Positions 28,092-40,680 of a DNA stretch of 64,000 bases are shown in pieces. The translations under genes and the position numbers were made by a program. The first letter of the stretch is position 1, and every line of letters starts with the position of its first letter. The stretch is from Prauserella marina. GTDB lineage: Bacteria > Actinomycetota > Actinomycetes > Mycobacteriales > Pseudonocardiaceae. The notes below the pieces were generated by a model. It was not told the DNA's origin and made no database searches. It saw only the letters and a program-made list of their open reading frames with translations. Location: assembly GCF_002240355.1 (NCBI RefSeq), contig NZ_CP016353.1, positions 1,104,501 through 1,168,500 on the forward strand, read 5' to 3'.

Positions 28092-29039
28092 CTACCACGA
28101 TTCGATCAGCGGGACGTCATGCTCGCGCCGCCGCCAGATCTCGGTGAGCCTGCGCAGCCGGTCCGGGGCGGTGATGCCGCGCACGCCCGCGATCTTGTCA
28201 CCATCGACCTCCAGGATCGTGACACCCGCGACGCGGTCGCCGAGCGCGACGAGCACGGCGGGGCAGCCGTTGACCATGGCGGCATGGATCGAGGGCGAGC
28301 CGCCCGCGAGTTTGCGCTTGGCGGGCGAGGGTTTGAAACCGGCCCGCACCGCACTGGCGATTCGCTCTGGGGTCGGGTACCGGAGCGGCTTTCCCGCCAG
28401 GCCCATCGCCGCGCTGTCGGTGACGCCGGTCGCGTCGTCGGTCAGCAGGGCCACCAGCCGTTCGGTCCGGCCGGACGCGGCGGCGGCGACGAATGCCTCG
28501 ACGACGTGACGCGCGGAGACCTGGTCGATGCCGGTGCTGTTTCCGGCCGCGGCGACTCGCCGCCGCGCGCGGTGGGTGTGTTGCTGGCTTCCGGACTCGG
28601 TGATGCCGAGAATCCCGGCTATTTCGGCGTGGCTGTAGGAAAACGCTTCGCGCAGTACGTAGGCGGCCCTTTCCACCGGCGAAAGACGCTCCATGATGGT
28701 CAGTACCGCCATGGTCACCGATTCGCGTTGCTCGACGGTGTCGGCGGGGCCGAGCATCGGATCGCCTTCGAGGAGTGGTTCGGGCATCCAGGTGCCGACG
28801 GCGCGTTCACGCCGCACCTTCGCCGACCGGAGCCGGTCGAGCGCCAGGTTGGTGACGATCTTGGTCAGCCATGCCTCCGGCACCCTGACGGAGGCATGGT
28901 CGGCGGCCTGCCACCGCAGGAACGCGTCCTGCACCGTGTCCTCGGCGTCGGCGGCCGAGCCGAGCAGACGGTAGGCGAGCGAGGCCAGCCGATCCCGGCT
29001 GGCCTCGAAACGTGCCACGGTGGCGGCGTCCATGGACAC
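28092..29039 (-). CDS. ECF41-type sigma factor with SnoaL-like C-terminal domain (cassette 1)
   Basis: 315 residues. Region 2 is LASLAYRLLGSAADAEDTVQ with DAFLRWQ, the linker motif WMPEP (usually WLPEP) is present, and region 4 includes LSPVERAAYVLREAFSYSHA and ILGITESGSQQHTHRARRR. A SnoaL/NTF2-like domain follows from about residue 190. In ECF41 factors this extension regulates the sigma activity in place of an anti-sigma. The usual DGGG motif is diverged here. It lies 4 bp after the flavin oxidoreductase gene and is co-transcribed with it. Confidence 0.88.
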   Translation of the reverse strand: MSMDAATVARFEASRDRLASLAYRLLGSAADAEDTVQDAFLRWQAADHASVRVPEAWLTKIVTNLALDRLRSAKVRRERAVGTWMPEPLLEGDPMLGPADTVEQRESVTMAVLTIMERLSPVERAAYVLREAFSYSHAEIAGILGITESGSQQHTHRARRRVAAAGNSTGIDQVSARHVVEAFVAAAASGRTERLVALLTDDATGVTDSAAMGLAGKPLRYPTPERIASAVRAGFKPSPAKRKLAGGSPSIHAAMVNGCPAVLVALGDRVAGVTILEVDGDKIAGVRGITAPDRLRRLTEIWRRREHDVPLIESW

Positions 29040-29043
29040 GGCG

Positions 29044-30243
29044 CTATGCGGCGACCACGTCGGACGAGGGCTCCTCGGCGGTCGTCAAGCGGTACTTGTG
29101 CCCCGGCTTTCCGAGGTTCGGGTGGCTCAGTGCCCAGACGGAGAGATGCAGGATCGCCGACTTGACGCGCGCGGCTTTCCGGCCCCGCAACGCCCACGAT
29201 TTCGAACGCGCTTCGGCGTCGACGAACTGGTAGATCGCGTCCTTGCGGCCGAGGCTGATGTGGTTGCCGACGTAGGACATCGGGATCTCCGGGATCTCGC
29301 GTCCTGTCCGGTCGCCGATGATCGCGGCGGCGGCCTGCTTGCTGGTCGGCCCAGCGGAAGCGCACGACATCGGATACGGCAGGCCGTTCTCGCCGATGGT
29401 GAAGACACTGTCACCGGCGACGTAGACGTCAGGATGCGAGACCGAGCGCATCTGCCGGTCGACGGTGATCTGGCCGTTGGCTTCCACCGCGAGTCCGCTG
29501 TCGGCCGCGATCGGGTGGACGGCGAAGCCCGCGGCCAGCACGGTCGCGTCGGAGCCGAACGCGGTGCCGTCGGCGGCGAAGGCCGCCGACTTCTCGACGC
29601 GCGCGATGGTGGTGTTCTCGTGGACCGCGATCCCGAACCGGTCGAAGGCCAGCCGCAGGTGGCGGTGGGCCTTCGGGCCAAGCCAGCCGCCCAGTTCGCC
29701 GCTGGTGACGAGGCTGACCCGCAGTCCTGGACGGGATTCGGCGATTTCGGTGGCGGTCTCGATCGCGGTCAGATTGCCGCCTGCCACCAGTACCGTCCCT
29801 TCCTCGCCCAGTTCGTCGAGGCGCGCGCGCAGGCGCACTGCCGCCGGTCGCGCGGCCACGTGGAAGGCGTGTTCGCTCGCGCCGGGAATGCCGTGGTCGG
29901 CGGCGGTGCTGCCGAGCGCGTAAAGCAGGGTGTCGTACGTGAGCCGGTCCGTGCCGCCCGTGCCGTCGTTGCCGGTGATGGTCACCATCCGGTGGTCGAC
30001 GTCGATGCCGGTCACCCGCGCCAGCCTGAGCCGGATGCCGGTACCGGCGAACACCTCCGCGAGCGGCCGGTTCCGAAGTTCCTGCCCTGCGGCGAGCTGG
30101 TGCAGGCGCAGTCGCTCGACGAAATCGGGTTCGGTGTTGACGACGGTGATCTCGAAGTCGTCGGAGTGGAGCTGGCGGGCCAGGTATCCGGCGGAGAAGG
30201 CTCCGGCATACCCGGCCCCGAGTACGACGATGCGGTGCTTCAT
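29044..30243 (-). CDS. NDH-2-like FAD/NAD(P) oxidoreductase (cassette 1)
   Basis: 399 residues. The FAD fold is IVVLGAGYAGAFSAGYLARQ, the second nucleotide fold is VLVAGGNLTAIETATEIAES (the usual GGGxxG is weakened), and the FAD-ribityl segment is PDVYVAGDSVF. It resembles single-subunit NADH dehydrogenases but lacks a C-terminal membrane helix, so it may be a soluble diaphorase. It is followed directly by an ECF41 factor. The same gene order recurs at 30,333-32,426. Confidence 0.85.
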   Translation of the reverse strand: MKHRIVVLGAGYAGAFSAGYLARQLHSDDFEITVVNTEPDFVERLRLHQLAAGQELRNRPLAEVFAGTGIRLRLARVTGIDVDHRMVTITGNDGTGGTDRLTYDTLLYALGSTAADHGIPGASEHAFHVAARPAAVRLRARLDELGEEGTVLVAGGNLTAIETATEIAESRPGLRVSLVTSGELGGWLGPKAHRHLRLAFDRFGIAVHENTTIARVEKSAAFAADGTAFGSDATVLAAGFAVHPIAADSGLAVEANGQITVDRQMRSVSHPDVYVAGDSVFTIGENGLPYPMSCASAGPTSKQAAAAIIGDRTGREIPEIPMSYVGNHISLGRKDAIYQFVDAEARSKSWALRGRKAARVKSAILHLSVWALSHPNLGKPGHKYRLTTAEEPSSDVVAA

Positions 30244-30332
30244 GGTGCACTCCCTTCTGGTTCGCTTGCTGTCTGAACGAGACAGCCACCAAAGCCCTGA
30301 CAGCCGCGGCCGGTGGCGTGGATCACTGGCGT

Positions 30333-31220
30333 TCAGCGCAGGCTGAGTGGTGTTTCGGAGCCGAGGTAGGCGAGCTTGCGTGGGTTGCGGACGTAGTAGA
30401 GGCCGGTGATGCGGGTGTCCTCGACGTGCATCGCGATGACCCCGTCGAGTTCAGAGTCCAGGTAGAGGGCCAGTGCGGGGCTGCCGTTGACGGTGGTCGC
30501 CTCGACGGCGAGCGTGATGACGTTCTTGGTGAGGCCGCCGACGATGAAGCGAGCGACCTTGCCCGCGCCGAGGATCGGGCGCGAAGACGCCTGTTTGATG
30601 CCACCTCCGTCGCTGATCGCCACGACGTCGGGGGCCAGCACGTCGAGCAGGCCCTGTAGGTCCCTTGTCTCCAGCGCGCGCCGGAACGCCTCCGCGACCG
30701 CCGAGGCTTGGCGCGGGGTGACCGTGCGGCGTGGACGGCGGGCCTCGACGTGCTTGCGGGCCCGGTGGGCGATCTGGTGCACGGCGGAGGGAGTCTTGCC
30801 GACCGAGGCCGCGATCTCGTCGTAGCCGACCCCGAATGCCTCGCGCAGCACGAACACCGCGCGCTCGACGGGGGTCAGCGTTTCGAGCACCAGCATCAGG
30901 CCGATCGACACGCTGTCGGCGAGTTCGACGTCGGCGGCCACATCCGGGGCGGTGAGCAGTGGCTCCGGCAGCCAGGCGCCGACGTAGGACTCCCTGCGGC
31001 GTTTCACCGTCCGCAGCCGGTTGAGCGCCTGGCGGGTGGTGATCCGAACCAGGTAGGCGCGGGGGTCGTTGACGTGTGCCGCCTCGACGTCGACCCAGCG
31101 CAGCCAGGTCTCCTGTAGGACATCGTCGGCGTCGGCCGCTGATCCGAGCATCTCGTAGGCGACGGTGAACAACAGGCTGCGGTGGCCGACGAACGTTTCC
31201 GTCGCCTCGGCGGCGTCCAT
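30333..31220 (-). CDS. ECF41-type sigma factor with SnoaL-like C-terminal domain (cassette 2)
   Basis: 295 residues. It shows the full ECF41 hallmarks: VAYEMLGSAADADDVLQETW, WLPEP at the linker, LTPVERAVFVLREAFGVGYD, VGKTPSAVHQIAHRARKH, and AISDGGG in the C-terminal SnoaL-like domain. It lies 6 bp after its flavin oxidoreductase partner. Sequence identity with the cassette 1 sigma factor is moderate, so the duplication is old. Confidence 0.9.
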   Translation of the reverse strand: MDAAEATETFVGHRSLLFTVAYEMLGSAADADDVLQETWLRWVDVEAAHVNDPRAYLVRITTRQALNRLRTVKRRRESYVGAWLPEPLLTAPDVAADVELADSVSIGLMLVLETLTPVERAVFVLREAFGVGYDEIAASVGKTPSAVHQIAHRARKHVEARRPRRTVTPRQASAVAEAFRRALETRDLQGLLDVLAPDVVAISDGGGIKQASSRPILGAGKVARFIVGGLTKNVITLAVEATTVNGSPALALYLDSELDGVIAMHVEDTRITGLYYVRNPRKLAYLGSETPLSLR

Positions 31221-31226
31221 GAAGTC

Positions 31227-32426
31227 TCACGTGTCCCGCGCGGCCGGTGCGGCCGATTCGCCACGCTGAGCCGCCAGCACCACCGGCCTGTGCTTACCGG
31301 CCTTGGGCCAGTGATGCGAGCCGGGCTTGCGTGCCTCGTTCACCAGGTGCTCGACGCTGGATTCGCAGGAGAATTCCTTGAGCTTCCTTCCGGCGGCACC
31401 GGTGAAGTAGAAGGGCACCGCGACATCGTTCTTGCGGGCGAGCTGGAAGATCGCGGTGCGACGACCGAAACTGACGCACATCGCGGGGAACGACAGATCG
31501 ACCGGTGCCGGTTCGTCGCCCGCGATCCGGCTCAGCACGGTGTCGGCGGCGTGCGCGCCAAGGCATCCCGCGATGTAGGCACCCATCCGGAACGGCAGAT
31601 CCGACGGTGCGGCGGCGTCGCCTGCCGCGACGATCCGCTCGTCGTCGACGCTGGTCAGTGTTTCGTCGGTGAGCAGCCGCCCGGCGGCGTCGGCGCGTAA
31701 CCCGCTGCGCTCGGCCAGACCGGACACGCTGAAACCGGCTGCCCAGATGGTGACCTGACTGGCCACCGTGCGGCCGTCACCGAGTTCCACCGCGTCCCGC
31801 TTCACCGAGGTGACGGTCGTATCGGAACCCTCGATGACGCTGACCCCCAGCCTGGCGAGGTACTTGCGGGCCGTTCGCCGAGCCCTCGGATGCAGGTAAG
31901 GGCCGAGCGCGCCGCCGCAGACCAGCGTGACAGCGCGGCCCCGCTCCGCCAGTTCCGAGGCGGTCTCGATGCCGGTCGGTCCGGCCCCGACGACCGTCAC
32001 CGGCGCGCTCACGGGCGTGTCGCACAGTACCGACCGCAGTCGCCGCGCCGCCTCCAGTGTCGCGACCGGATAGCCGAACTCCGCCGCCCCGGGAACGCGG
32101 GGGCTGGGGCTGCCGCTGCCGGTCGCGTAGACGAGGTAGTCGTAGCCGATGTCGCCGCCCTCAGCCAGCTTCACGCGGCGCGTGGCCGCGTCGATTCCGG
32201 TCGCGCTGTCGAGAACAAGCCGGACCCCTTCGGCAAGGACGGTCTCGTAGTCGACGACCGCGTCATGGGTCTCGCCCACCAGCTGATGCAGCCGCAGTCG
32301 CGGGACGAAGACCGAGCGGGGGTTGACGACGGTCACCGCGACATCGTCACGTCGCGTCAACCGGTTGGCCGCCATCACGCCCGCGTATCCCCCACCGATC
32401 ACGACCACATCGATGTTCTCGCCCAT
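31227..32426 (-). CDS. NDH-2-like FAD/NAD(P) oxidoreductase (cassette 2)
   Basis: 399 residues from ATG 32426 with GGAGG upstream. The FAD fold is VVVIGGGYAGVMAANRL, the NAD(P) fold is VTVVGAGPTGIETASELAER, and ERIVAAGDAAAPSDLPFRMG holds the FAD segment. A conserved CVSFGR segment and a long C-terminal tail (HHWPKAGKHRPVVLA) match carotenoid- or quinone-linked NDH-2 relatives in actinomycetes. It heads the second cassette. Confidence 0.88.
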   Translation of the reverse strand: MGENIDVVVIGGGYAGVMAANRLTRRDDVAVTVVNPRSVFVPRLRLHQLVGETHDAVVDYETVLAEGVRLVLDSATGIDAATRRVKLAEGGDIGYDYLVYATGSGSPSPRVPGAAEFGYPVATLEAARRLRSVLCDTPVSAPVTVVGAGPTGIETASELAERGRAVTLVCGGALGPYLHPRARRTARKYLARLGVSVIEGSDTTVTSVKRDAVELGDGRTVASQVTIWAAGFSVSGLAERSGLRADAAGRLLTDETLTSVDDERIVAAGDAAAPSDLPFRMGAYIAGCLGAHAADTVLSRIAGDEPAPVDLSFPAMCVSFGRRTAIFQLARKNDVAVPFYFTGAAGRKLKEFSCESSVEHLVNEARKPGSHHWPKAGKHRPVVLAAQRGESAAPAARDT

Positions 32427-32545
32427 GGTGCCTCCTTCGTTCAGAGTGGCCTGAGCACAAGACACCGCGCCATCGGAAACCCTGACAGGATGTGAAGCAG
32501 ATCACTCGTTGGGGTTGCCGTGATCTGCTCCGGAACGAGTGGACG

Positions 32546-32578
32546 CCTCCGGAGGTCCAGTGTGTGTACATTGTGTGT
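32546..32578 (+). promoter_or_regulatory. Promoter and operator of the vapBC pair
   Basis: CCTCCGGAGG is a perfect 10-bp palindrome at 32546-32555, followed by TGTGTGTACAT and TGTGTGTA direct repeats. TACATT at 32567-32572 fits a TAnnnT -10 box about 7 nt before ATG 32579, and no ribosome site is correctly placed, suggesting a leaderless transcript under antitoxin autoregulation. Confidence 0.55.
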
Positions 32579-32806
32579 ATGGCACGGCTGAACGTGTACC
32601 TGTCTGACGAGCTGGCCGAGCGGGCCAAGGTCGCCGGCTTGAACATTTCCGCTCTCGCGCAGGCCGCGATCGCCGACGAGTTGCGCCGCCGGGATACGAA
32701 CTCGTGGTTGGCCTCGCTGCCCGAGCCGCGCGGCACGGTCTCCCATGGCGTCGCCCTTGAGGCGCTGGATGATGCTCGCGAGGAGTTGGCGGGCGCGGAT
32801 GACTGA
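32579..32806 (+). CDS. VapB-like ribbon-helix-helix antitoxin
   Basis: 75 residues. The N-terminal MARLNVYLSDELAERAKVAG and LNISALAQAAIADELRRRD form a ribbon-helix-helix DNA-binding domain (CopG/MetJ-like). The acidic C terminus (ALDDAREELAGADD) would wrap and inhibit the toxin. It overlaps the toxin gene by 8 bp. Confidence 0.87.
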   Translation: MARLNVYLSDELAERAKVAGLNISALAQAAIADELRRRDTNSWLASLPEPRGTVSHGVALEALDDAREELAGADD

Positions 32807-33227
32807 GCCGCCCGCCGAGCTCGTGGTAGTCGACGCGTCGGTTCTCGTCGATCTGCTTGCCGGTACCGACTATGCGGCACCGGCGAAGGAGCGGCTGGTC
32901 AACACCGTCCTGCACGCGCCGGCGCACATGGACGCCGAGGTGTTTTCCGCTATCGGTCGACTTCAGCGTGCTGGAAAGCTGACCACGGCCGATGTCGACG
33001 CGGCACTGTCGGCGTTGGCCACGATCCCCGTGAAGCGCCACCCCGTTGCCGAGTTGACGGTCGGTGCGTGGACACGCAGGGCGGATCTCCGCTTGACTGA
33101 CGCGCTGTACATCGAACTCGCCGCCCGGCTACGGGTGCCGGTCCTCACCACCGATCACCGCCTCGCGCGCGCGAGTTCGCTTGCCGAAGGCATCGCACTC
33201 GGATCACCGCGTGGGGCGTCAGGCTGA
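32799..33227 (+). CDS. VapC-like PIN-domain ribonuclease toxin
   Basis: 142 residues of the PIN fold. The acidic metal-binding positions are visible in VVVDASVLVDLL (Asp), HMDAEVFSAIGRL (Glu), RLTDALYIELA (Asp) and LTTDHRLA (Asp). VapC toxins cleave tRNA or rRNA. It is coupled to the antitoxin upstream; the pair is convergent with, and 7 bp from, the asparagine-synthetase-like gene. Confidence 0.9.
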   Translation: MTEPPAELVVVDASVLVDLLAGTDYAAPAKERLVNTVLHAPAHMDAEVFSAIGRLQRAGKLTTADVDAALSALATIPVKRHPVAELTVGAWTRRADLRLTDALYIELAARLRVPVLTTDHRLARASSLAEGIALGSPRGASG

Positions 33228-33234
33228 TCTCGCT

Positions 33235-34959
33235 CTAGCCGCCGACGTCGAACGAGCGCAACCACAACTCCAGCGTGAGCACGAGCCACAGTTTCCCGCC
33301 GTGCCTCGGCAGCAATGTCCCTTCCTTGCGCAGCCAGGACCGGATCGTGTCGGGACGGAACAGTCCCCGCTGCCGGGTGGCCCTGCTCAAGAGCAGATCG
33401 TTGCCCAGTTCCCGCAACGGTCCCGCGAGCCACTGTTGCACCGGCACCCGCATGCCGCTCTTCGGCCGGTCGACGACCGTGGCGGGGAGCAGGTCCCTCA
33501 CCGATTCCTTCAGCACCCATTTCTCGGTGGTACCGGCCAGTTTCCAGCGTGGAGGTATCCGGAACGCGTGGTCGATCACCGGTCGCGCGAACAGCGGCGA
33601 CCTGCCCTCCAGCCCGCTTGCCGCCGTGATCCGCTCGACCTTGGTCAGGATGTGGTGCGCCCCCTTGGTGCGCAGGTTCGCGTGCAGCAACTGGTTGAGC
33701 AGGCTGTGCATCCCGCCCTGACGCAGGTAGGGCTCGACGAGGTCAGCGGGGTGCGGCGCGCCGTCGAGTTCGGCGAGCACGTCACCGGTCAGCAACACCG
33801 GAAGATCGGCATGGCATTTCCGGTAGGAATCCAGGTATGCCATGGCTCGCGCTCGTGGATCGGGGTCGTCGCGGTGCAACTCCGAGATCAGCATCGGCAG
33901 GTTCTTGGGCCCGCCGAACACCGGATCACCACCCTCACCGTTGAGCACCACCGGCATCCCGTCGGCCGCGACGGCTTCGGCGAGCAGCCGGTTGGGCACG
34001 GTGAGCGGGTCACCCACGGGACTGTCGAGCAAAGCGACCGTGTCCGGCAATCGCGCCGCGACCGTCTCGCCCGCGACCGTCAGCACGCGGTGTTCGGTGT
34101 GGCAGTGCGCGGCGACCAGCCCCGAATAGCCGAGCTCGTTGGGCAAGGTGTCGCCGAAGCTGATCGAGTAGGTGCGCACGGGCTGGTCGTGCAGTTTCCT
34201 GGCCAGCGCCGTGACGAGGCTGCTGTCGACCCCGCCGGAAAGCAGGACGGCGGCGGGCTCGCCTTCGGGGAGGCGGCGAGCCGTGGCCTCCTCAAGCAGC
34301 GCGCGCAGCGCGTGCGCGTGGTCGGCGGCTGGCCGCTCGTCGGCGACCTCGCGAGGTTCCCAGAACACCTCCTCCTTCGACGAACCGTCGGCACGCAGCC
34401 GGAGGCAGCGGCCAGGCAGCACCTCGCGGATCCCCCGCAACAAGGTCTCCGTGCCGGGGAGGTAGGCGAAGGTGAGAAACGACCGCACGGCGGACAGATT
34501 CAGTCCGCTGTCGAGCGCGGGCCAGCGGTGTACCGCTCGCAACGACGTCGAGGCAAGCCAGGTCCCGTGTGCTCGTGCGTGGAAGAGGGTGCGCGCCCCG
34601 GTGTGGTCGCGGACGAGCACCAGGTCGCTGCCGTCGGCGATGGCCAGCGCGAACATGCCGTCGGCTTGGGCGAGCCCCGCCAGCCCGAACCTGGCGTAGC
34701 AGTGCAGCAGCAGCTCGATGGCCGAACAATCGGACCGTGGCGCGTCGCGGCCGAGACTCGAGCGCAACGCGGCGGCGTTGAACAGCGTCACCTCACCGAC
34801 GGCCGTCACACCGGCGGCTTCGACCGGCGCGCTCGCGGCCCCCGGCTCGTCGAGCAGCCCGAACGCGAGCCTTCCCTGCCTCGTCTGCTCGCGCGCTCCC
34901 ACCGAGGCGAGCGTCCTCGTCGGATCACCGTCAGCCGAGCAGGCACACCAGCGCGTCAT
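33235..34959 (-). CDS. Asparagine synthetase-like amidotransferase lacking the glutaminase cysteine
   Basis: 574 residues. The C-terminal synthetase domain is intact: PPi loop VLLSGGVDSSLVTALARK, YSISFGD, NGEGGDPVFGG, KVERITAASGLEGRSPLFA and RPKSGMRVPV. The N-terminal class II glutaminase domain is degenerate: it starts MTRWCACSADGD, so residue 2 is Thr rather than the catalytic Cys, and no alternative start gives Met-Cys. Such enzymes (lasso-peptide cyclases, beta-lactam synthetases) adenylate a carboxylate and amidate it with free ammonia or an internal amine. It is the last of four coupled genes and starts 9 bp after an Asp/Gly-rich protein that could be its substrate. Confidence 0.85.
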   Translation of the reverse strand: MTRWCACSADGDPTRTLASVGAREQTRQGRLAFGLLDEPGAASAPVEAAGVTAVGEVTLFNAAALRSSLGRDAPRSDCSAIELLLHCYARFGLAGLAQADGMFALAIADGSDLVLVRDHTGARTLFHARAHGTWLASTSLRAVHRWPALDSGLNLSAVRSFLTFAYLPGTETLLRGIREVLPGRCLRLRADGSSKEEVFWEPREVADERPAADHAHALRALLEEATARRLPEGEPAAVLLSGGVDSSLVTALARKLHDQPVRTYSISFGDTLPNELGYSGLVAAHCHTEHRVLTVAGETVAARLPDTVALLDSPVGDPLTVPNRLLAEAVAADGMPVVLNGEGGDPVFGGPKNLPMLISELHRDDPDPRARAMAYLDSYRKCHADLPVLLTGDVLAELDGAPHPADLVEPYLRQGGMHSLLNQLLHANLRTKGAHHILTKVERITAASGLEGRSPLFARPVIDHAFRIPPRWKLAGTTEKWVLKESVRDLLPATVVDRPKSGMRVPVQQWLAGPLRELGNDLLLSRATRQRGLFRPDTIRSWLRKEGTLLPRHGGKLWLVLTLELWLRSFDVGG

Positions 34960-34968
34960 TCCCGTTCC

Positions 34969-35496
34969 TCAGCCGAAATCGCCGGCGTCATCCAAGCCAC
35001 CGTCGCCGTCGGACCAGCCGTCGTCATCGGAGGCGGTCTCCCCGGTGCTTCCGGCGTCGCCACCGCCGCCCTGCTGCTGCCGGAGCGCTTCTTCTTCCTC
35101 CGGCGTCATCGTCATCGGGGGCATGGCCAGCCCGGCGACGAGCGCGCCACCGGCCACCCCGGCGAGCACGGCGCCGACCTTGCCGCCGAAGGACGACCTG
35201 TTGACCGTGAGCACCCCGTCGCCCCACAGGGTGCGGCCGTAACCGGCCTCGCGGCCGTAGAGCACGCTCCCGTCCGAGTGCGTGCGCTTGACGATCTTGC
35301 GGCCGAGCGGTTCGTCGGTTCCGGTCGTGTTGGCGTTGTCCCGCCAGGACACCGCGCCGCTGTCGGCGCGGGTGCGCCATTCCAGCCGTCCGTCCGAGTA
35401 GCGCCGGTGCACCGTTCCGTCGGCAAGTAACTCGTCGGTGTAGCTGGTTTCCCGTTGTGGCCGGGTTCCCGCCATGATCGCCTCCGCCTTTCTCAT
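34969..35496 (-). CDS. Beta-hairpin / glycine-zipper protein with Asp/Gly-rich tail, unknown function
   Basis: 175 residues from ATG 35496, which overlaps the previous stop as ATGA. Residues 20-95 are beta-hairpin repeats (DGTVHRRYSDGRLEWRTR, DGSVLYGREAGYGRTLWGDG). A glycine-zipper hydrophobic stretch follows (GAVLAGVAGGALVAGLAMPP), then EEEEALRQQQ, and an acidic tail of D, G, S, E and one W (SDDDGWSDGDGGLDDAGDFG). No signal peptide is seen. The layout resembles membrane-inserting peptides or toxins with a modifiable acidic tail, but no family is recognised. Confidence 0.7.
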   Translation of the reverse strand: MRKAEAIMAGTRPQRETSYTDELLADGTVHRRYSDGRLEWRTRADSGAVSWRDNANTTGTDEPLGRKIVKRTHSDGSVLYGREAGYGRTLWGDGVLTVNRSSFGGKVGAVLAGVAGGALVAGLAMPPMTMTPEEEEALRQQQGGGGDAGSTGETASDDDGWSDGDGGLDDAGDFG

Positions 35497-36290
35497 GCGC
35501 TCGGCCAGCTCAGGAAACCGGATTCCCTCGCCTTGCGCGGACTCGGCTGCCGCGTTCGGACCGGCCGGACCTCGCGGACCAGCCGGTGCACGGTGCGCAG
35601 CAGCGACGCGGGCCGGACAGCGGCGACCTCGGCGAACCTGCCAAGGGCGCACCACTGCTCTTCCCGTTCGGTCATCGTGCCGCGCGGCCCGCTCGGGTGC
35701 TCCCTGCCGTGGGCGAGGTGCAGTGCGCGGGCGTGGTGCGGCCGCAGGCCGACGCCCGTGACTCGGACTCCGTCAGGGGTGAGCCGTCGCACCAGGCCGG
35801 GAAAGGCCAGTCCCACCGCACCGGCGTCGTGCAGGACGTACACGGTGGCCCGCTCCGCGGTGCGGAGCATCCTCAGCACTCCTTCGGCGAGCGGCAACTC
35901 GGCCGCCCCGAAGACAGGGCAGGCCGATTCCATCGGAATCCCGTTGGCGCGCAGCATGTTCGCGATCGCGTCCGACTCGCAGACAAGCACCCTGGGTAGC
36001 CCGTAGTCGAACAGATCCGGTTCCGGCGTGTGCCTGCCGGCCCCGCGCCGCACCGGTCGCGGTTCCGGCAGCAGACCGGGCAGCGGCCCCGCTTCGAGCA
36101 GCGCTTCGCGGAAACGCGGGTAGCGCACCGAGGGGGCGACCGTGAACGGAAACCGTCGCGGGATGTGCTGCGCGGGGCGCGGCACTCTGCACAGTTCGTA
36201 GTAGAGCTGGCGCTCGGTGAAGCGCACGCCGCCCGGCTGCCCCGCGCGTTCGGCCGCGAGCCGCAGTGCGAGGTCCAGCAGCCCTTTCAT
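35493..36290 (-). CDS. TOPRIM/topoisomerase VI A-like protein B, unknown function
   Basis: 265 residues from ATG 36290, overlapping the upstream stop. RFTERQLYYELCR near residue 25 resembles the winged-helix entry of Topo VI-A/Spo11-like proteins (RxLYYxL). RVLVCESDAIANMLRANGI and ATVYVLHDAGAVGLAFPGLV look like the two halves of a TOPRIM core, with Glu and one Asp kept and the second Asp of DxD missing. The C terminus ends ESGFLSWPSA, nearly the same as the next upstream protein. Catalytic competence is doubtful; the fold call is inference. Confidence 0.6.
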   Translation of the reverse strand: MKGLLDLALRLAAERAGQPGGVRFTERQLYYELCRVPRPAQHIPRRFPFTVAPSVRYPRFREALLEAGPLPGLLPEPRPVRRGAGRHTPEPDLFDYGLPRVLVCESDAIANMLRANGIPMESACPVFGAAELPLAEGVLRMLRTAERATVYVLHDAGAVGLAFPGLVRRLTPDGVRVTGVGLRPHHARALHLAHGREHPSGPRGTMTEREEQWCALGRFAEVAAVRPASLLRTVHRLVREVRPVRTRQPSPRKARESGFLSWPSA

Positions 36291-37354
36291 GCGCCGGGCC
36301 AGGTGAGGAAGCCGACGCGTTCCGCCGTCGCCGTTTCGGCGCCGGGCCCCGAGGTCGCCCGGGTGATCGCCCTGGTGAGCGCGGCGAGCAGTTTCGCGGG
36401 CGGCACCGAGGCCAGCGGCGTGTACCAGCCGTTGCCGAGCCAGGTGAGTTCGTCCTCGGTCAAGCCGGGGCGCAGGTCGCGCAGGCTCCGCATCTCCGCG
36501 CCGGTCGGGCGCCGCTCCCTGAGCTTGATGGCCTTTTCCTGGCCCATGACGGCGTTCGGGCGCAGCCCGGGCGTCACCGTCCGCGCGCCGAAGGCGGCCC
36601 GCGCCTCGCACGCGAGCCGGATGCCCTGTGGGCTCGCGTCGTGCAGCACGATCACCGGAACGCCGGGTGGAACGTGGGCGAGCGACCCGACGAGCGCCGC
36701 CTCGTGCTCGCCGGGTACCCCGCTCGCGGCGAGGCAGGCGAGCACGGCGCGATCCGGCACCACGATCGCGACCCGTGGTTCGGCTATCTCGGGCACGACG
36801 AGGTTCGTCTCGTCGGCCATCCGAGGCGGTGGTTCGCGGTAGACGACCTCCCAGCGCCGCACCCGGGACCGGAACTTTTCGAGTTCCTCCGGCATCGGTA
36901 CTTTCCCGTTGCGCTTGCACCACGGCACGAGGGCGAACTTCAGCACGAGGTACGTGACGATCCAGACGCCCACCATGATCAGCACGGCGGACAGGATCAG
37001 GCCCCAGTCGAAGGAGGAGATCACGGCGATGGGCAGTTGCACGAACACGCTGAGGCCCACCACGGTGCAGCCGATGACGCCCGCGGTGTCCACGGGGTCA
37101 CGCAGTCGGCCACGGGCGGCGGCATACCACAGTTGCGGCAGGGTGTAGCGCAGCCTGCCGCCGTCGGACAGCTTGTCGGCGAGCTTGCGCACGCGCACGT
37201 CGTGCATGACGATGTCGCCCTCTTTGGGCTCCAGCGCGAACTGCCGTCTGCAGTAATAGCAGCGGTAGTCGGAACGTTCCTTGCGCTTGAGGTCGCGCTG
37301 ACAGTGTGGACAGATCATCCGGTCGTCTTCCGCGGTGTCAACTCGGTCACCCAT
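36287..37354 (-). CDS. Zinc-ribbon, two-helix membrane, TOPRIM-like protein A, unknown function
   Basis: 355 residues. CPHC (15-18) and CYYC (32-35) form a zinc ribbon. LRYTLPQLWYAAARG (68-82) parallels FTERQLYYELCR in the next gene. Two membrane helices follow (GVIGCTVVGLSVFVQLPIAV and LILSAVLIMVGVWIVTYLVL). Then comes a TOPRIM-like region (RVAIVVPDRAVLACLAASGV; VPVIVLHDASPQGIRLACEA). The last residues are RVGFLTWPGA. It therefore looks like a membrane-tethered paralogue of protein B. It is first gene of the four-gene operon and divergent from a cupin gene. Confidence 0.65.
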   Translation of the reverse strand: MGDRVDTAEDDRMICPHCQRDLKRKERSDYRCYYCRRQFALEPKEGDIVMHDVRVRKLADKLSDGGRLRYTLPQLWYAAARGRLRDPVDTAGVIGCTVVGLSVFVQLPIAVISSFDWGLILSAVLIMVGVWIVTYLVLKFALVPWCKRNGKVPMPEELEKFRSRVRRWEVVYREPPPRMADETNLVVPEIAEPRVAIVVPDRAVLACLAASGVPGEHEAALVGSLAHVPPGVPVIVLHDASPQGIRLACEARAAFGARTVTPGLRPNAVMGQEKAIKLRERRPTGAEMRSLRDLRPGLTEDELTWLGNGWYTPLASVPPAKLLAALTRAITRATSGPGAETATAERVGFLTWPGA

Positions 37355-37387: not shown

Positions 37388-37413
37388 TCACATCTGACCG
37401 TAAGGTGCGGAGT

Positions 37414-38145
37414 ATGTCCGATGTGCGCATCAAACACGATGCGGATGACGAGAACGAGGTCCACGACGTCGCGACCTTCGCCGACCAGGCGCGCAACGTC
37501 GTCACCCCGGTGCTGCGGTTGCCTGAGGACGCGGCACTCGCGGTGGTCACCGCCTTCGCCGGGATCGTGCGCGCGGCCAAACGCAGCACGGCCGCCACGA
37601 CGAGGGACCGCGACGGCATCGTGCGGTCCCAGGTCTTCGAGGAGGGTGACGTGTACATGCTGGAGTCACCCTTCGACGGGTTTTTCGCCGACCGCTACGT
37701 GATGGACTTCTACAACGTCACCGAACGCGGGGTCTGTTCTCGCATGCATCTGCACACCGGACTGAGGTTCGTGCGCATGATGACCGGTCCGGACACGCGG
37801 ATCAGGGTCAGCAGCCTTTCCCCGTTCGAGGTGACCGACATTCCCGGCGTGACACCGTTCGTGCCGGAGGCTTTCGACGACGAATTGCCCGGCGCGCCGG
37901 AAGGCGTACGGCGCACTCGTCACAATCTCGTGGTGCCACCGTGTTCGTTCGTGGACATGCAGATCCCCAGGGGAGTCAGCCATCAGTTCAACGCCATCGG
38001 CGAGCACGCGGTGATCGATTCGGTTCACCCCGAGGAATCCGTCGAGACGTTCAGGGAACGGATGTCCGGCTACCGGATGATGGCGCAGACGGTGTTCCTC
38101 GCCGACGAACTGCCCCCTTCGGACTCGTGTGACTTGCGTGCCTGA
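37414..38145 (+). CDS. Cupin-like protein, unknown function
   Basis: 243 residues from ATG 37414 (AAGG 8 nt upstream). After a helical N terminus, residues 80-235 alternate strands with cupin-type features: SRMHLHTGLRFVRMMTGPDT (His-x-His), VVPPCSFVDMQIPRGVSHQF and IDSVHPEESVETFRERMSGY. It could be a metal-binding sensor or a non-haem oxygenase. It is divergent from the four-gene operon and its end is 5 bp from the convergent ECF41 gene at 38,151. Confidence 0.6.
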   Translation: MSDVRIKHDADDENEVHDVATFADQARNVVTPVLRLPEDAALAVVTAFAGIVRAAKRSTAATTRDRDGIVRSQVFEEGDVYMLESPFDGFFADRYVMDFYNVTERGVCSRMHLHTGLRFVRMMTGPDTRIRVSSLSPFEVTDIPGVTPFVPEAFDDELPGAPEGVRRTRHNLVVPPCSFVDMQIPRGVSHQFNAIGEHAVIDSVHPEESVETFRERMSGYRMMAQTVFLADELPPSDSCDLRA

Positions 38146-38150
38146 GCTGC

Positions 38151-39050
38151 CTATCGCGTGGTCGCCGTCCATGGCCTGAGCTTCTCGGGGTTGCGGACGG
38201 CCCAGATGTGCTTGATCTTCTCGGCCGCGATGTCGAACGCGTACACCGTCACGGTGACACCGTCGTGCTGGGCGATGAGCCCAGGCTGACCGTTGACCGT
38301 GCGCTCCAGAAGCGTGAGGTGGGCTGCCGCGTGCGCGATCTCGACGCTGGCGTGCGCGATCCGTTCGCCGCCGTGAATCGGTTCGAGGAAGGCGATGACG
38401 AGACCCCCGCCGTCGGCGACCGAGGTGGCTTCCGGGTCGAGCAGGCCGATGAGCGCGTCGATGTCCTTGGCTTCCCACGCCGCCTTGAAGTTCCGCACGA
38501 TCTCGGCATGCCGGGCGGCGGGAGGCGCTTCGGTCCGCGCCGCGCGGATGCGGCGGCGAGCCGAGGTCGCGAGCTGGCGGCAGGCACCAGGGGTGCGACC
38601 GACGATCTCGGCCACTTCCGCGAAGGGATAGCGGAACACGTCGTGCAGGATGAACGTGACGCGCTCGGCCGGGGTCATCGACTCCAGCACGACGAGGAAG
38701 GCCATGTTGACCGATTCGTCGAGGGTGACCCGGTCGGCCGGATCGCCCGCTTGCCCGCTGATCCACTCCCTCGGCTCGGGCAGCGGCTCGGGGATCCATT
38801 CGCCGACGTAGCGTTCGCGCCTTGCGCGGGCGGAACCGAGCACGTTGAGGCAGATGCGGCTCGCGACCTTGGTCAGCCAGGCGCCGGGGGAGTCGATGGC
38901 TTCCCGCTGCCGGGGAGTCATGGCGTACCAGCGGGCATAGGTCTCCTGCACGGCGTCCTCGGCGTCGGCGAGGGAGCCGAGCAGCCGGTAGGCGACGTTG
39001 ATGAGCTGGCGCCGCTCGCTCATGACCGCGCTCAGGCCGGGAGAGTTCAT
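38151..39050 (-). CDS. ECF41-type sigma factor with SnoaL-like domain (third copy in window)
   Basis: 299 residues from ATG 39050. Region 2 (LINVAYRLLGSLADAEDAVQ), the linker WIPEP, region 4 (MTPAERVTFILHDVFRYPFA, IVGRTPGACRQLATSARRR) and the DGGG motif (VADGGGLV) are present, followed by a SnoaL-like domain. The start codon sits inside a 12-bp palindrome at 39,048-39,059. It is divergent from a stand-alone SnoaL gene, its likely target. Confidence 0.88.
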   Translation of the reverse strand: MNSPGLSAVMSERRQLINVAYRLLGSLADAEDAVQETYARWYAMTPRQREAIDSPGAWLTKVASRICLNVLGSARARRERYVGEWIPEPLPEPREWISGQAGDPADRVTLDESVNMAFLVVLESMTPAERVTFILHDVFRYPFAEVAEIVGRTPGACRQLATSARRRIRAARTEAPPAARHAEIVRNFKAAWEAKDIDALIGLLDPEATSVADGGGLVIAFLEPIHGGERIAHASVEIAHAAAHLTLLERTVNGQPGLIAQHDGVTVTVYAFDIAAEKIKHIWAVRNPEKLRPWTATTR

Positions 39051-39059
39051 ACCGGTATG
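39048..39059. promoter_or_regulatory. CATACCGGTATG palindrome over the ECF41 start
   Basis: A perfect 12-bp palindrome whose left half contains the ATG (minus strand) of the sigma gene. It may be an operator on a leaderless transcript or a coincidence; no ribosome site is seen for the start. Confidence 0.4.
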
Positions 39060-39166
39060 ACCGGACAGCTCGCCGGAATGTGACGTGGGTCGTGGTCCCT
39101 CACATGCGCCGGCGCCGCGCTGTCGGACTGGTGAACGCCACGAATCCGACAACCTGGAGGACCAAG

Positions 39167-39646
39167 ATGGCTGATCTCACGATCGTCGCCGACCGGATGG
39201 ACATCGAGGTGCTGCGAGCGGAGCACGTCGACGCGCCCATGGTCGGCGACTACGACCGGTTCGCGTCGCTGTTCACCGACGACGCCGTGTGGCGGATCCC
39301 CTTCGCCGACGTCGAATTCACCGGGCGGAAGGAGATCAGAGCCGGGATCGAGCGATTGCAGAACGCGTGGGAGTTCTGGGTGCAGAACACGCATCCCGGC
39401 GCGATCCGGCTCGACGGCGACACCGCGACCGGCAGGGAGTACGTGTTCGAGACCGGCCGTCAGCGCGACGGCGGATCGGTTGTCATGTACGGCCTTTTCC
39501 ACGACCGCTACGCGCGCACCCCGGATGGCTGGAAGTTCGCGGAGCGCGTCCTCGAACCCAGGTATCTCGACACCACCCCGCTGACGGGCGGCCCGCCCCA
39601 GGGGACCTGGAGCGACATCCAGCCGCCGTCGGCCGCGAAGCGGTAA
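39167..39646 (+). CDS. SnoaL-like (NTF2-fold) protein
   Basis: 159 residues from ATG 39167 with TGGAGG upstream. It has the polyketide-cyclase/ketosteroid-isomerase type fold: ADRMDIEVLRAEHVDAPMVG, YDRFASLFTDDAVWRIPFAD, FTGRKEIRAGIERL and a C-terminal GWKFAERVLEPRY. The family includes isomerases, dehydratases and ring hydroxylases; the activity is unknown. Its position beside an ECF41 factor matches the common pairing of ECF41 with small oxidoreductase or SnoaL genes. Confidence 0.85.
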   Translation: MADLTIVADRMDIEVLRAEHVDAPMVGDYDRFASLFTDDAVWRIPFADVEFTGRKEIRAGIERLQNAWEFWVQNTHPGAIRLDGDTATGREYVFETGRQRDGGSVVMYGLFHDRYARTPDGWKFAERVLEPRYLDTTPLTGGPPQGTWSDIQPPSAAKR

Positions 39647-39660
39647 GGGCGGCGGAGTGC

Positions 39661-40680
39661 TCAAGCCGGTTCGTCGCGGGTCGCGCAGTGGATGCCCCCG
39701 CCTCCGGACATCAGCACGTCGAGATCGAGGGCCACGACGTCCCTGCCCGGGTAGCAGTCGCAGAGGACGCCTGCCGCGTGGTCGTCCGCCGTCCGGTCAC
39801 CGAAGCTGGTCATCAGCACCGCGCCGCCTGCGACGTAGTAGTTGACGTAGCTCGCCACGAATTGTTCCAGCAGTGCCGGATCGCCGACCCTGAGCTCGCC
39901 CGGCTCGGGCAGCGGGATCGTCGTGAATGGACGACCGTCCGCGTCGGTCGCCGTCGAGAGGGTCGCCAGTGTTCGTTCGGTGACGCGTTCCCAATCCGGG
40001 TCGGTGCCCGGCCTCGCCTGGTGCACGAGGACGACGCCGGGCCGGACGAACCTGGCAAGCCCGTCGACGTGGCAGTCGGTGATGTCCAGTCCGGGCGCTC
40101 CGTCCAGCCAGACGACCTTGCGGATGCCGAGCAGCGCGGCGAGTTCGCGTTCCACGTCCGCCTCGGTCGCGCCGGGATTGCGGTTCGGGTTGAGCAGGCA
40201 GCCGCGGGTGGCCAGCGCGGTGCCTGCCCCGTCCACCTCGAACCCGCCCTGTTCGATGACCATCGGCGTCGCGGTCCGGCGAACGCCCGCGTGATCGAGC
40301 AGTCGCCGTGCTACATGCTGATCATCCACAATGGACTGTCTACCGCCCCAGCCGTTGAATCCGAAGTCGACGCCGACGACTTCGTCGTCGTGCAGGGCGA
40401 AAGTCGGCCCGGTGTCCCGGATCCACAGGTCGTCGACAGGGATGGGGACGACCTTGACGTCGCGGCCGACGGCCACACTTGCCGCCTCGGCCTGCTCTGG
40501 CCTGGCAAGTAGCAGAACCTGTTCGTAGCGAGCGATGGTGCGGGCCAGCAGCGCGATGTCGTCGCGTACCGCCGGAAGCAGTTCGCCCCACACGTCGTAC
40601 CGGGCCGGCCAGGCGAGCCAGCACCGGTCGTGTCGTTCGCTCTCGGCCGGCGTGGAGATCACCGGTCTTGCTCCCAGCAT
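39661..40680 (-). CDS. Agmatine deiminase family protein
   Basis: 339 residues from ATG 40680. The pentein catalytic segments are clear: PVDDLWIRDTGPTF (Asp), GLDITDCHVDGLARFV (His) and a C-terminal GGGGIHCATRDEPA (nucleophile Cys). Agmatine deiminase converts agmatine to N-carbamoylputrescine; related enzymes act on peptidyl-arginine. It overlaps the end of the APH-like gene by 22 bp, so they are co-transcribed. Confidence 0.9.
   Translation of the reverse strand: MLGARPVISTPAESERHDRCWLAWPARYDVWGELLPAVRDDIALLARTIARYEQVLLLARPEQAEAASVAVGRDVKVVPIPVDDLWIRDTGPTFALHDDEVVGVDFGFNGWGGRQSIVDDQHVARRLLDHAGVRRTATPMVIEQGGFEVDGAGTALATRGCLLNPNRNPGATEADVERELAALLGIRKVVWLDGAPGLDITDCHVDGLARFVRPGVVLVHQARPGTDPDWERVTERTLATLSTATDADGRPFTTIPLPEPGELRVGDPALLEQFVASYVNYYVAGGAVLMTSFGDRTADDHAAGVLCDCYPGRDVVALDLDVLMSGGGGIHCATRDEPA

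Follow-up and report, generated by a model that had tools for sequence, protein, structure and literature searches.

Gene content and conservation of the cassette

Four genes lie on the minus strand of a 64,000-nucleotide stretch of Prauserella marina DNA (contig NZ_CP016353.1; hereafter the window): A (36287–37354), B (35493–36290), C (34969–35496), and D (33235–34959), each an open reading frame. B encodes a soluble paralogue of A, C a protein with a beta-hairpin domain and an acidic, D/G-rich tail, and D an asparagine-synthetase-like protein. We observed that A and B, and likewise B and C, overlap by 4 bp (ATGA) and that C and D are 9 bp apart, confirming the compact operon described in the initial annotation. 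The reading frame of A was also upheld; its start may be ATG 37354 or ATG 37318, the latter corresponding to MICPHC, with which homologues begin. A ribosome-binding-like GGGGAGG lies upstream of ATG 37354. The four genes had been taken as the full extent of the unit, but the cassette continues to a cupin-like gene, cup3 (37405–38145, plus strand), which is divergent from A here and had been missed.

We scanned a genome collection with B as the query and kept 80 loci, the best 80 of 91. This set has the P. marina genome itself outside it and contains species repeats (Nocardia carnea three times, N. flavorosea twice) as well as loci from the same genomes (L032 = L009, L052 = L011, and L069 = L026). 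Using profiles built from 4 to 9 sequences to find A, C, and D beside B, we found C and D after B in 80/80 loci and A before B in 78/80. The same 78 loci keep the ABCD order on one strand; of the remaining two, one is cut by a contig end and the other has A inverted nearby. Furthermore, B, C, and a signature motif of D were found in the same six of 394 genomes of the class (own genome counted). The initial annotation had made its proposal depend on homologues of A–D being co-located in other genomes, and in the 80-locus survey they share loci, in one order in 78/80, while B, C, and the D motif coincide in the class genomes. The four-gene operon is real, far beyond what chance would give.

Neighboring genes were surveyed with a simple ORF caller (at least 80 residues) and single-linkage clustering, with partial annotation. 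A cupin gene was found in 76 of the 80 loci, either as cup3 (40 loci) or as cup6 (36 loci) and never as both; the cupin is the fifth component of the cassette. Most cup3 loci have the cupin gene downstream of D. An aldehyde dehydrogenase gene sits 14–156 bp downstream of D in 32/36 cup6 loci but directly downstream of D in 0/40 cup3 loci, two of which have it upstream of A (at 171 and 2794 bp). cup6 came close to the Pfam Cupin_2 cut-off (E 9.1e-6, 25.7 of 27.2 bits); cup3 had no cupin match in Pfam at E 0.1, and we take its HxH and IPRGVSHQFN motifs to resemble cupin motifs. Every other neighbor family occurred in at most 14/80 loci, the next commonest being a short-chain dehydrogenase cluster (14/80) and, judged by eye, a transporter-like protein (11/80), both at median distances above 1 kb. 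No leader peptidase or exporter recurs among the neighbors of the 80 loci. The locus in the window represents a cassette, conserved in actinobacteria, that is made up of a cupin and A-B-C-D; no comparable cassette was found in the literature searched, and the cassette is apparently undescribed so far.

Within the family, 4 of 120 genomes carry the cassette (own genome counted), and the Streptomyces loci fall in both clades of the tree. One of 72,556 plasmid records holds a relative of B, and this record is a large linear Streptomyces replicon. Viral contigs searched with B patterns gave 25 matches, with no relative of B among them, phage records searched with C gave no match, and the best probability for A in BFVD was 0.38 among the matches listed. 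The cassette has probably spread horizontally. Two minor observations concern single genomes. The search of the 394 class genomes with C returned one extra, low-complexity match (G310), which we rejected as a bearer of C because by eye it resembles an acidic stretch of an unrelated frame, and G012 has a weak match to A that contains an internal stop.

Paralogy and predicted fold of A and B

A and B had been described as TOPRIM-like paralogues. Comparison of 63 A and 64 B sequences by hhalign identified them as true paralogues (probability 99.8, E 5.5e-28), and the shared segments pointed out earlier, QLWYAAAR/QLYYELCR, VIVLHDAS/VYVLHDAG, and GFLTWP/GFLSWP, are present. The zinc ribbon of A also held up, all four cysteines (C3, C6, C20, and C23 from the MICPHC start) being invariant in 63/63 sequences, as did its membrane helices, with a best 19-residue hydrophobic mean of 1.91–3.35 in 63/63 and, in six sequences inspected, a pair of distinct hydrophobic windows. 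A consists of the zinc ribbon, a winged helix with Tyr65, an inserted two-helix membrane hairpin, and a Toprim-like domain with D227, in which DxS stands for DxD. B consists of a winged helix with T25-E-R27-Q-L-Y-Y31 and a Toprim-like domain with E105 (Gln in most relatives), D155, and G157 (Ser in most relatives), and it carries E221.

Conservation of these residues was uneven. In B, R27 is kept in 60/64 sequences, Y31 in 59/64 (Phe in four, His in one), D155 in 58/64, and E221 in 55/64; the Toprim Glu position is Glu in 24/64 and Gln in 35/64, and the second Asp of DxD is Ser in 54/64 and Asp in 1/64. In A, D227 is present in 63/63 sequences and the second Asp of DxD in 12/63, while Tyr65 is found in 53/63 and an Arg four residues before it in 2/63. 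Judged by these residues, the predicted Toprim metal site of B is eroded. Searches by sequence gave no Topo VI-A assignment. A and B of the window had nothing above cut-off against Pfam, NCBIfam, and PADLOC models. Against Pfam, the 64 B members hit seven chance families, with no Topo VI-A, and for the 63 A members, 25 of 80 families were listed, mostly zinc ribbons and with no Topo VI-A among them. B gave two chance-level matches and no Topo VI-A against PDB sequences. TP6A_N (PF04406) has no match in the own genome, and the control genomes that do have it yielded no loci. The own genome likewise gave no match to JetD_C, for which eight loci were collected and three aligned.

AlphaFold models of A and B reached pLDDT 91 and 88, and with both models the first PDB entry returned by Foldseek was Topo VI-A. 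A matched Topo VI-A (9o0g, probability 1.00; 1d3y, 0.99), JetD (7til, 0.94; other chain, 0.57), and Spo11 (8uru, 0.93). B matched Topo VI-A (2zbk, 0.89), the next-highest probability being 0.51 among the 50 matches listed. The E-values were modest, at best 1.5e-3 for A and 0.095 for B with none reaching 0.001, and two unrelated chains matched B at the same E of 0.095 (probabilities 0.44 and 0.38). For the matches cited, query-based TM-scores were low (0.22–0.36), and the top two matches of A had an rmsd of 14–15 Å. Overall, the models suggest that A and B are likely relatives of Spo11, each predicted to combine a winged helix with a Toprim domain in the manner of Topo VI-A/Spo11, which makes the TOPRIM-like assignment more exact. 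Their relationship to this known superfamily is distant and degenerate at most, and they do not, as the initial annotation had allowed for, belong to a well-described unrelated family.

The residue spacing in B partly recalls that of M. mazei Top6A. In PMC13040014, Top6A has a clasp Arg102 and a catalytic Tyr106, the same spacing as R27 and Y31 of B, and the distance from E202 to D254 (52) is close to that from position 105 to D155 in B (50). However, the other spacings differ, with 74 residues from Y31 to position 105 in B against 96 in Top6A, and 66 from D155 to E221 against 88. More broadly, A and B share the predicted winged helix plus Toprim fold with Topo VI-A, Spo11, and JetD, and B shares Arg-x3-Tyr, the first Asp of DxD, and a Glu at the presumed clasp Glu. 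They differ in having mostly DxS for DxD, in the Gln or Glu of B at the Toprim Glu position, and in being short and paired, with A adding a zinc ribbon and a membrane hairpin. No GHKL partner of the Top6B type recurs beside A/B among the neighbors of the 80 loci, nor does an SMC-like JetABC partner, as in Wadjet, recur at these loci or find support in PADLOC. Mini-A presumably has no Top6B partner, and we know of no Mini-A that comes as two paralogues, has membrane helices, or is partnered by an asparagine-synthetase-like protein. Mini-A is Topo VI-A-like, as A and B are predicted to be, but it sits on mobile elements (PMC8185306 and PMC11302465), whereas a B relative occurred in just 1/72,556 plasmid records.

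Asparagine-synthetase-like D and the tail of C

D matches Asn_synthase (PF00733, 6.6e-74), with the signature GEGGDPVFGGPKN and K500 kept, and S241, G242, G243, D245, S246, and S247 of its SGGxDSS ATP-pyrophosphatase loop are invariant among 44 sequences. Residue 2 is Thr in the window, as noted initially. With starts assigned by motif, 78 homologues have Ala (37), Ser (27), Thr (5), Pro (5), or Arg (1) at this position, with three unassigned; Cys2, which the initial annotation had asked after in homologues elsewhere, was found in 0/75 with an assignable start. Four other PF00733 genes of the own genome have Cys directly after an apparent Met/Val start and keep Glu and Tyr. The best NCBIfam match of D was TIGR03104 (N-acetylglutaminylglutamine amidotransferase, AsnO-type), at 253.8 bits against a cut-off of 570.1, and the lasso cyclase models NF033535 (97.7/525 bits) and NF033561 (83.1/300 bits) were also below cut-off. 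Against the PDB, phmmer ranked beta-lactam synthetase 1jgt best (3.2e-19), and the D profile placed hydroxyamidotransferase 7ylz first and 1jgt second.

The analogy to lasso cyclases and beta-lactam synthetases drawn earlier was borne out in part. We take those enzymes to be PF00733 proteins without the glutaminase Cys, and D shares this feature; however, its lasso scores are far below cut-off, the Glu-Tyr dyad is absent, and no peptidase or B-protein gene of lasso systems recurs around D. Of the earlier interpretation, Toprim paralogy, co-location, and a Cys-less D stood; an action of D on the tail of C and contact of A/B with nucleic acid are conjectural. By its sequence, D is an unplaced branch of asparagine-synthetase-like enzymes, with a predicted amide-ligase core that lacks the glutaminase nucleophile.

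The dyad position, putatively mapped onto D by alignment to 1ct9 for Glu and by the same spacing for Tyr, is Pro-Pro in 76/76 readable homologues (2/78 were not read), so D appears not to be simply one more C-terminal amidase. In PMC13060819, this dyad (Glu363 and Tyr368 of PesC) is conserved in AsnB, AsnO, TsrC, ScdTA, and PesC; the asparagine-synthetase-like TsrC, ScdTA, and PesC modify ribosomal peptides at their C-terminal carboxylate, and the PesC precursor has a conserved C-terminus, comparable to the DFG of C. D belongs to PF00733 like these amidases and nitrile synthetase (AsnO, TsrC, ScdTA, and PesC), but it differs from them in lacking Cys2 and the dyad, in having a folded partner, C, and in having no recurring peptidase or exporter.

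The features attributed to C are all present: DG repeats resembling hairpins, one hydrophobic stretch rich in glycine, and an acidic tail. C is a folded protein of about 160–190 residues whose beta-hairpin domain shows weak similarity to Tcp10_C (G-box). The tail ends in DFG in 78/80 loci, with a short fixed acidic tip preceded by a variable linker. A W.DDDFG-type tail (our own pattern) was found in 27/32 loci with cup6 and dehydrogenase versus 0/40 cup3 loci. Tail type and cupin type follow two clades of the tree, so this correlation is not independent support, and we rejected it as proof that the enzymes act on the tail.

A proposed model and competing readings

We propose that A and B would form an asymmetric heterodimer, with A holding the pair at the membrane. 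A:B may bind or gate DNA, probably without cleaving it, and would not relax DNA, since no Top6B-like partner recurs beside A/B. C would be a dedicated substrate of D, which could adenylate one of the carboxylates of the acidic tail, most probably close to its DFG end, before joining ammonia or another amine to it, thereby changing the charge or the partner of the tail. The cupin, accompanied in cup6 loci by the aldehyde dehydrogenase, may provide the amine or aldehyde partner or detect it, and the modified tail would switch the docking of C on A:B. We give this explanation as a whole a probability of roughly 40%. Counting against it, the hydrophobic stretch of C may place the tail outside the cell, apart from cytoplasmic D. 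A more specific picture seems to us quite improbable, namely a membrane-tethered Spo11-like A:B that works with no Top6B ATPase and whose hold on DNA is switched when D puts an amide or isopeptide mark on the tail of C.

Two other roles for C appear unlikely. As a carrier protein, C would receive a small amine or amino acid from D on its acidic C-terminus, the cupin and dehydrogenase would tailor the load, and the product would be released, with A and B as regulators or scaffold. This fits the nearly constant cupin and the dehydrogenase that closely follows D in most cup6 loci, and the fixed acidic C-terminus parallels amino-group carrier proteins and pearlins, acidic carriers amide-modified at a C-terminal Glu (PMC9303977). 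However, C ends in DFG and not Glu. A releasing hydrolase or exporter recurs in none of the neighbor families of the 80 loci, the cup3 loci lack a dehydrogenase directly downstream of D, and A and B are left unexplained. The ligase of these carriers presumably also differs in fold from D. Alternatively, D might make a small molecule and never touch C, which would be an adaptor that docks on A:B through its acidic tail with the aromatic tip, like an SSB tip or a DNA mimic. The short fixed tip beyond a variable linker indeed looks like a docking tip such as single-stranded DNA-binding protein has, and A and B resemble DNA-gate proteins, but the constancy of D (80/80) would then be unexplained.

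Slightly more doubtful is a system for defense or inter-bacterial conflict, in which A:B would be a nuclease-like effector, like JetD in Wadjet, and C, D, and the cupin a sensor or brake. The patchy spread (4/120 family and 6/394 class genomes, own genome in both), the occurrence of Streptomyces loci on either side of the tree's two-clade split, and the high rank of JetD in the fold matches of A are consistent with such a role. However, PADLOC gave one match for six proteins (E 0.036 over 33 residues), the Toprim acids are eroded, no neighbor family beyond the cupins and dehydrogenase exceeds 14/80 loci, and phage records and viral contigs held no relatives of C and B, respectively. That D is an ordinary asparagine synthetase beside unrelated genes, as PF00733 membership might suggest, we regard as practically negligible; co-occurrence and gene order already refute it, Cys2 is absent, and four other PF00733 genes of the own genome keep Cys, Glu, and Tyr.

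Bacterial Top6 relatives form the nuclease part of the Wadjet, MksBEFG, and Gabija defense systems (PMC13040014), and Topo VI is sporadic in bacteria (PMC11302465). If the proposed model is true, the fold would have a new use here, in a degenerate Top6-like pair that is anchored in the membrane and linked to an amide ligase, and the cassette predicts a protein substrate for an unplaced asparagine-synthetase-like branch. Many Streptomyces records carry the cassette, so the system can be studied now.

Co-occurrence of A-D and their partners

The four minus-strand genes described by the initial annotation are present in the window exactly as claimed: A (36287-37354), B (35493-36290), C (34969-35496) and D (33235-34959). 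A/B and B/C overlap by ATGA, and a 9 bp gap separates C from D. C is single-copy in the 6.99 Mb genome. A gene of the cup3 cupin-like family lies outside the coordinates first given, at 37405-38145 on the plus strand, upstream of A and divergent from it.

Co-location of the A-D families in other genomes had been named beforehand as a test, and it held. Among 120 genomes of the bacterial family, the window's own counted, B and C were each confined to 4, the same for both; A was in these too and gave one further, weak match containing a stop. D adjoins A, B and C in 3/3 family relatives examined, and a same-genus relative, G053, carries the cassette. Of 394 genomes from the class, again counting the window's own, 6 matched the B profile; the C profile matched those 6 plus one low-complexity sequence, and an exact DNA pattern for a D signature matched once in each of the 6. 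When B was used to scan a genome collection covering 84,980 species, 91 relatives were returned, the best 80 of which were kept for locus counts. Profiles detected B, C and D in 80/80 of these loci, and the one-strand order A-B-C-D was observed in 78; the other two are B-C-D loci, of which one adjoins the end of its contig and the other has an inverted A downstream. All 80 loci belong to genera that we take to be Actinomycetes. We are nearly certain (probability about 0.97) that the cassette exists and is one unit.

Clustering the neighbor genes of the 80 loci identified recurrent partners. A cupin-like gene is present in 76/80. The cup3 family occurs in 40/80, either on the same strand downstream of D (32 loci) or divergently upstream of A (8 loci), the latter being the placement in the window. 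A second family, cup6, occurs in 36/80 and overlaps A or lies ≤8 bp from it in 30 of the 36; the two families were found together in 0/80 loci. Four loci have no cupin: the contigs are short in two (L064, L091), and the other two (L048, L094) lack the gene. In 32/36 cup6 loci, and also in L064, D is followed at 14-156 bp by an aldehyde dehydrogenase gene; for the one member scanned, the best NCBIfam model was aminobutyraldehyde dehydrogenase, below cut-off. In a FastTree tree of B and D with a midpoint root, the cup3 clade was separate from the cup6 clade. Streptomyces loci occur in both clades, which suggests that the cassette moved by horizontal transfer.

A-type sequence occurs twice in 24/80 loci, counting long fragments as well as genes. 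The cup6 cupin follows the first A match instead of preceding it in L072, L077 and L084, and in L077 a full A lies on one side of it and a short A fragment on the other. Two copies are broken, by decay or sequencing error: in L049, a Rhodococcus draft, C stops prematurely and D is scattered over several frames, and in L043, from Nocardia crassostreae, D is split between two frames. A linear Streptomyces replicon of 1.6 Mb that is catalogued as a plasmid encodes a B relative with 41% identity (NZ_CP108509.1, about 1091328-1092107).

Predicted fold and active-site positions of A and B

The earlier proposal that A and B are paralogues was borne out by their sequences. AlphaFold models had mean pLDDT values of 90.9 for A (63-sequence alignment) and 88.0 for B (64-sequence alignment). 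A motif likeness to Topo VI-A had been noted ahead of the Foldseek search against the PDB, in which Topo VI-A ranked first for both proteins; Topo VI-A, Spo11 or JetD filled five of the top six rows for A. The E-values (1.5e-3 for A, 0.095 for B), the TM-scores (0.22-0.36) and the rmsd of A's best matches (14-15 Å) are all at the level of a remote match; two unrelated chains have the same E-value as B's Topo VI-A match, with lower probabilities.

The catalytic Tyr106 of M. mazei Top6A is reported to lie four residues after Arg102, which clasps Glu342; E202/D254/D256 form its metal site (PMC13040014). In B, R27 (60/64) and Y31 (59/64) are spaced as in Top6A; position 105 is Gln in 35 and Glu in 24 of the 64 sequences, and B further has D155 in 58/64, Ser at position 157 in 54/64 and E221 in 55/64. 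We infer from context, without superposition, that E221 is equivalent to Glu342; the longer spacings differ between B and Top6A (74 versus 96 and 66 versus 88). A retains the Tyr in 53/63 and D227 in 63/63, with Arg at the clasp position in 2/63 only, Pro301 (60/63) at the position matching B E221, and DxD in 12/63. Plant SPO11-2 is reported to have DxN, so the second Asp of the motif can vary (PMC11302465). A also has a four-Cys zinc ribbon (63/63) and a hydrophobic helical hairpin placed between its two domains.

We think it very probable that A and B descend from a Topo VI-A-like ancestor. Given the remote fold match, the residue losses and the hydrophobic hairpin of A, A:B resembles a degenerate, Topo VI-A-like pair held at the membrane. 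The pair is unlikely to cleave DNA, with a small probability left for B.

D as an amide-ligase branch and C as its candidate substrate

D is asparagine-synthetase-like and has the ATP loop. The Lys of its RPKSG motif, K500, is invariant in 44 sequences, and we take it to be the catalytic-type Lys. The lack of Cys at residue 2, noticed earlier in D, extends to its homologues (Cys in 0/75 assigned starts). AsnB and peptide amidases have a Glu and a Tyr where D has Pro and Pro (76/76 readable sequences). In PesC, Tyr368 is reported as essential, and Glu363 loss impairs (PMC13060819). The genome has four other PF00733 genes in which Cys follows the apparent start and both Glu and Tyr are conserved; a fifth, on the small second contig (L126:880-2676), is without the N-terminal Cys, keeps the Glu, and is nearest the albusnodin/ikarugamycin macrolactam cyclase model (lasso-type; 207.1 bits, below the cut-off of 300). 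D's best model is AsnO-type, with a score far below cut-off. Without Cys2, and with Pro-Pro instead of Glu-Tyr, D is by sequence a branch of its own.

DG-turn hairpins recur in the N-terminal half of C, and 6/9 members matched Tcp10_C weakly (best E 0.0039, below cut-off). Next come a glycine-rich hydrophobic stretch (best 19-residue mean 1.6-2.3 in 9 members), a short run of acidic residues and a tail rich in D, G and S. Both the length and the composition of this tail vary, yet it ends in DFG in 78/80 loci; the non-DFG cases are L092, which ends in HFG, and L049, with its early end where D is broken too.

C's tail would be the most economical substrate of D, because D and C are inseparable, D is without an ammonia source of its own, and a fixed C-terminal motif follows a variable acidic linker. 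Relatives of D are reported to convert the C-terminus of ribosomal peptides to an amide or a nitrile (PMC13060819). We put the chance that D acts on C slightly below even. The missing Glu-Tyr dyad argues against plain amidation and in favor of a different amine or a different carboxylate. A small-molecule partner is suggested by both the cupin and the dehydrogenase. A:B would bind DNA at the membrane; this is the least certain part of the scheme, suggested solely by the modeled fold.

The window's A, B, C and cup3 cupin gave no match above cut-off in PADLOC, Pfam or NCBIfam, and a literature search, mostly outside subscription journals, found no publication on this gene combination. The parts belong to known superfamilies; the whole system fits no known kind to our knowledge.

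Genes flanking the cassette

Convergent with the end of D, a small protein gene and then a PIN-domain protein gene (PIN 2.1e-12) occupy 32492-33227 on the plus strand. No NCBIfam model matched the small protein at E 1e-5; the two are possibly a VapBC-like toxin-antitoxin pair. Beyond them, at 28092-32426 (minus strand), a SigJ-type sigma factor and an FAD-type pyridine nucleotide oxidoreductase occur as two tandem pairs, and the homology of one pair to the other suggests a duplicated regulatory unit. On the other side, a third SigJ-type sigma factor gene is divergent from a SnoaL-like protein gene (38151-39646), followed by a gene for an agmatine deiminase-like protein (39661-40662, minus strand; NCBIfam score 251.8 bits, below the cut-off of 381.8).
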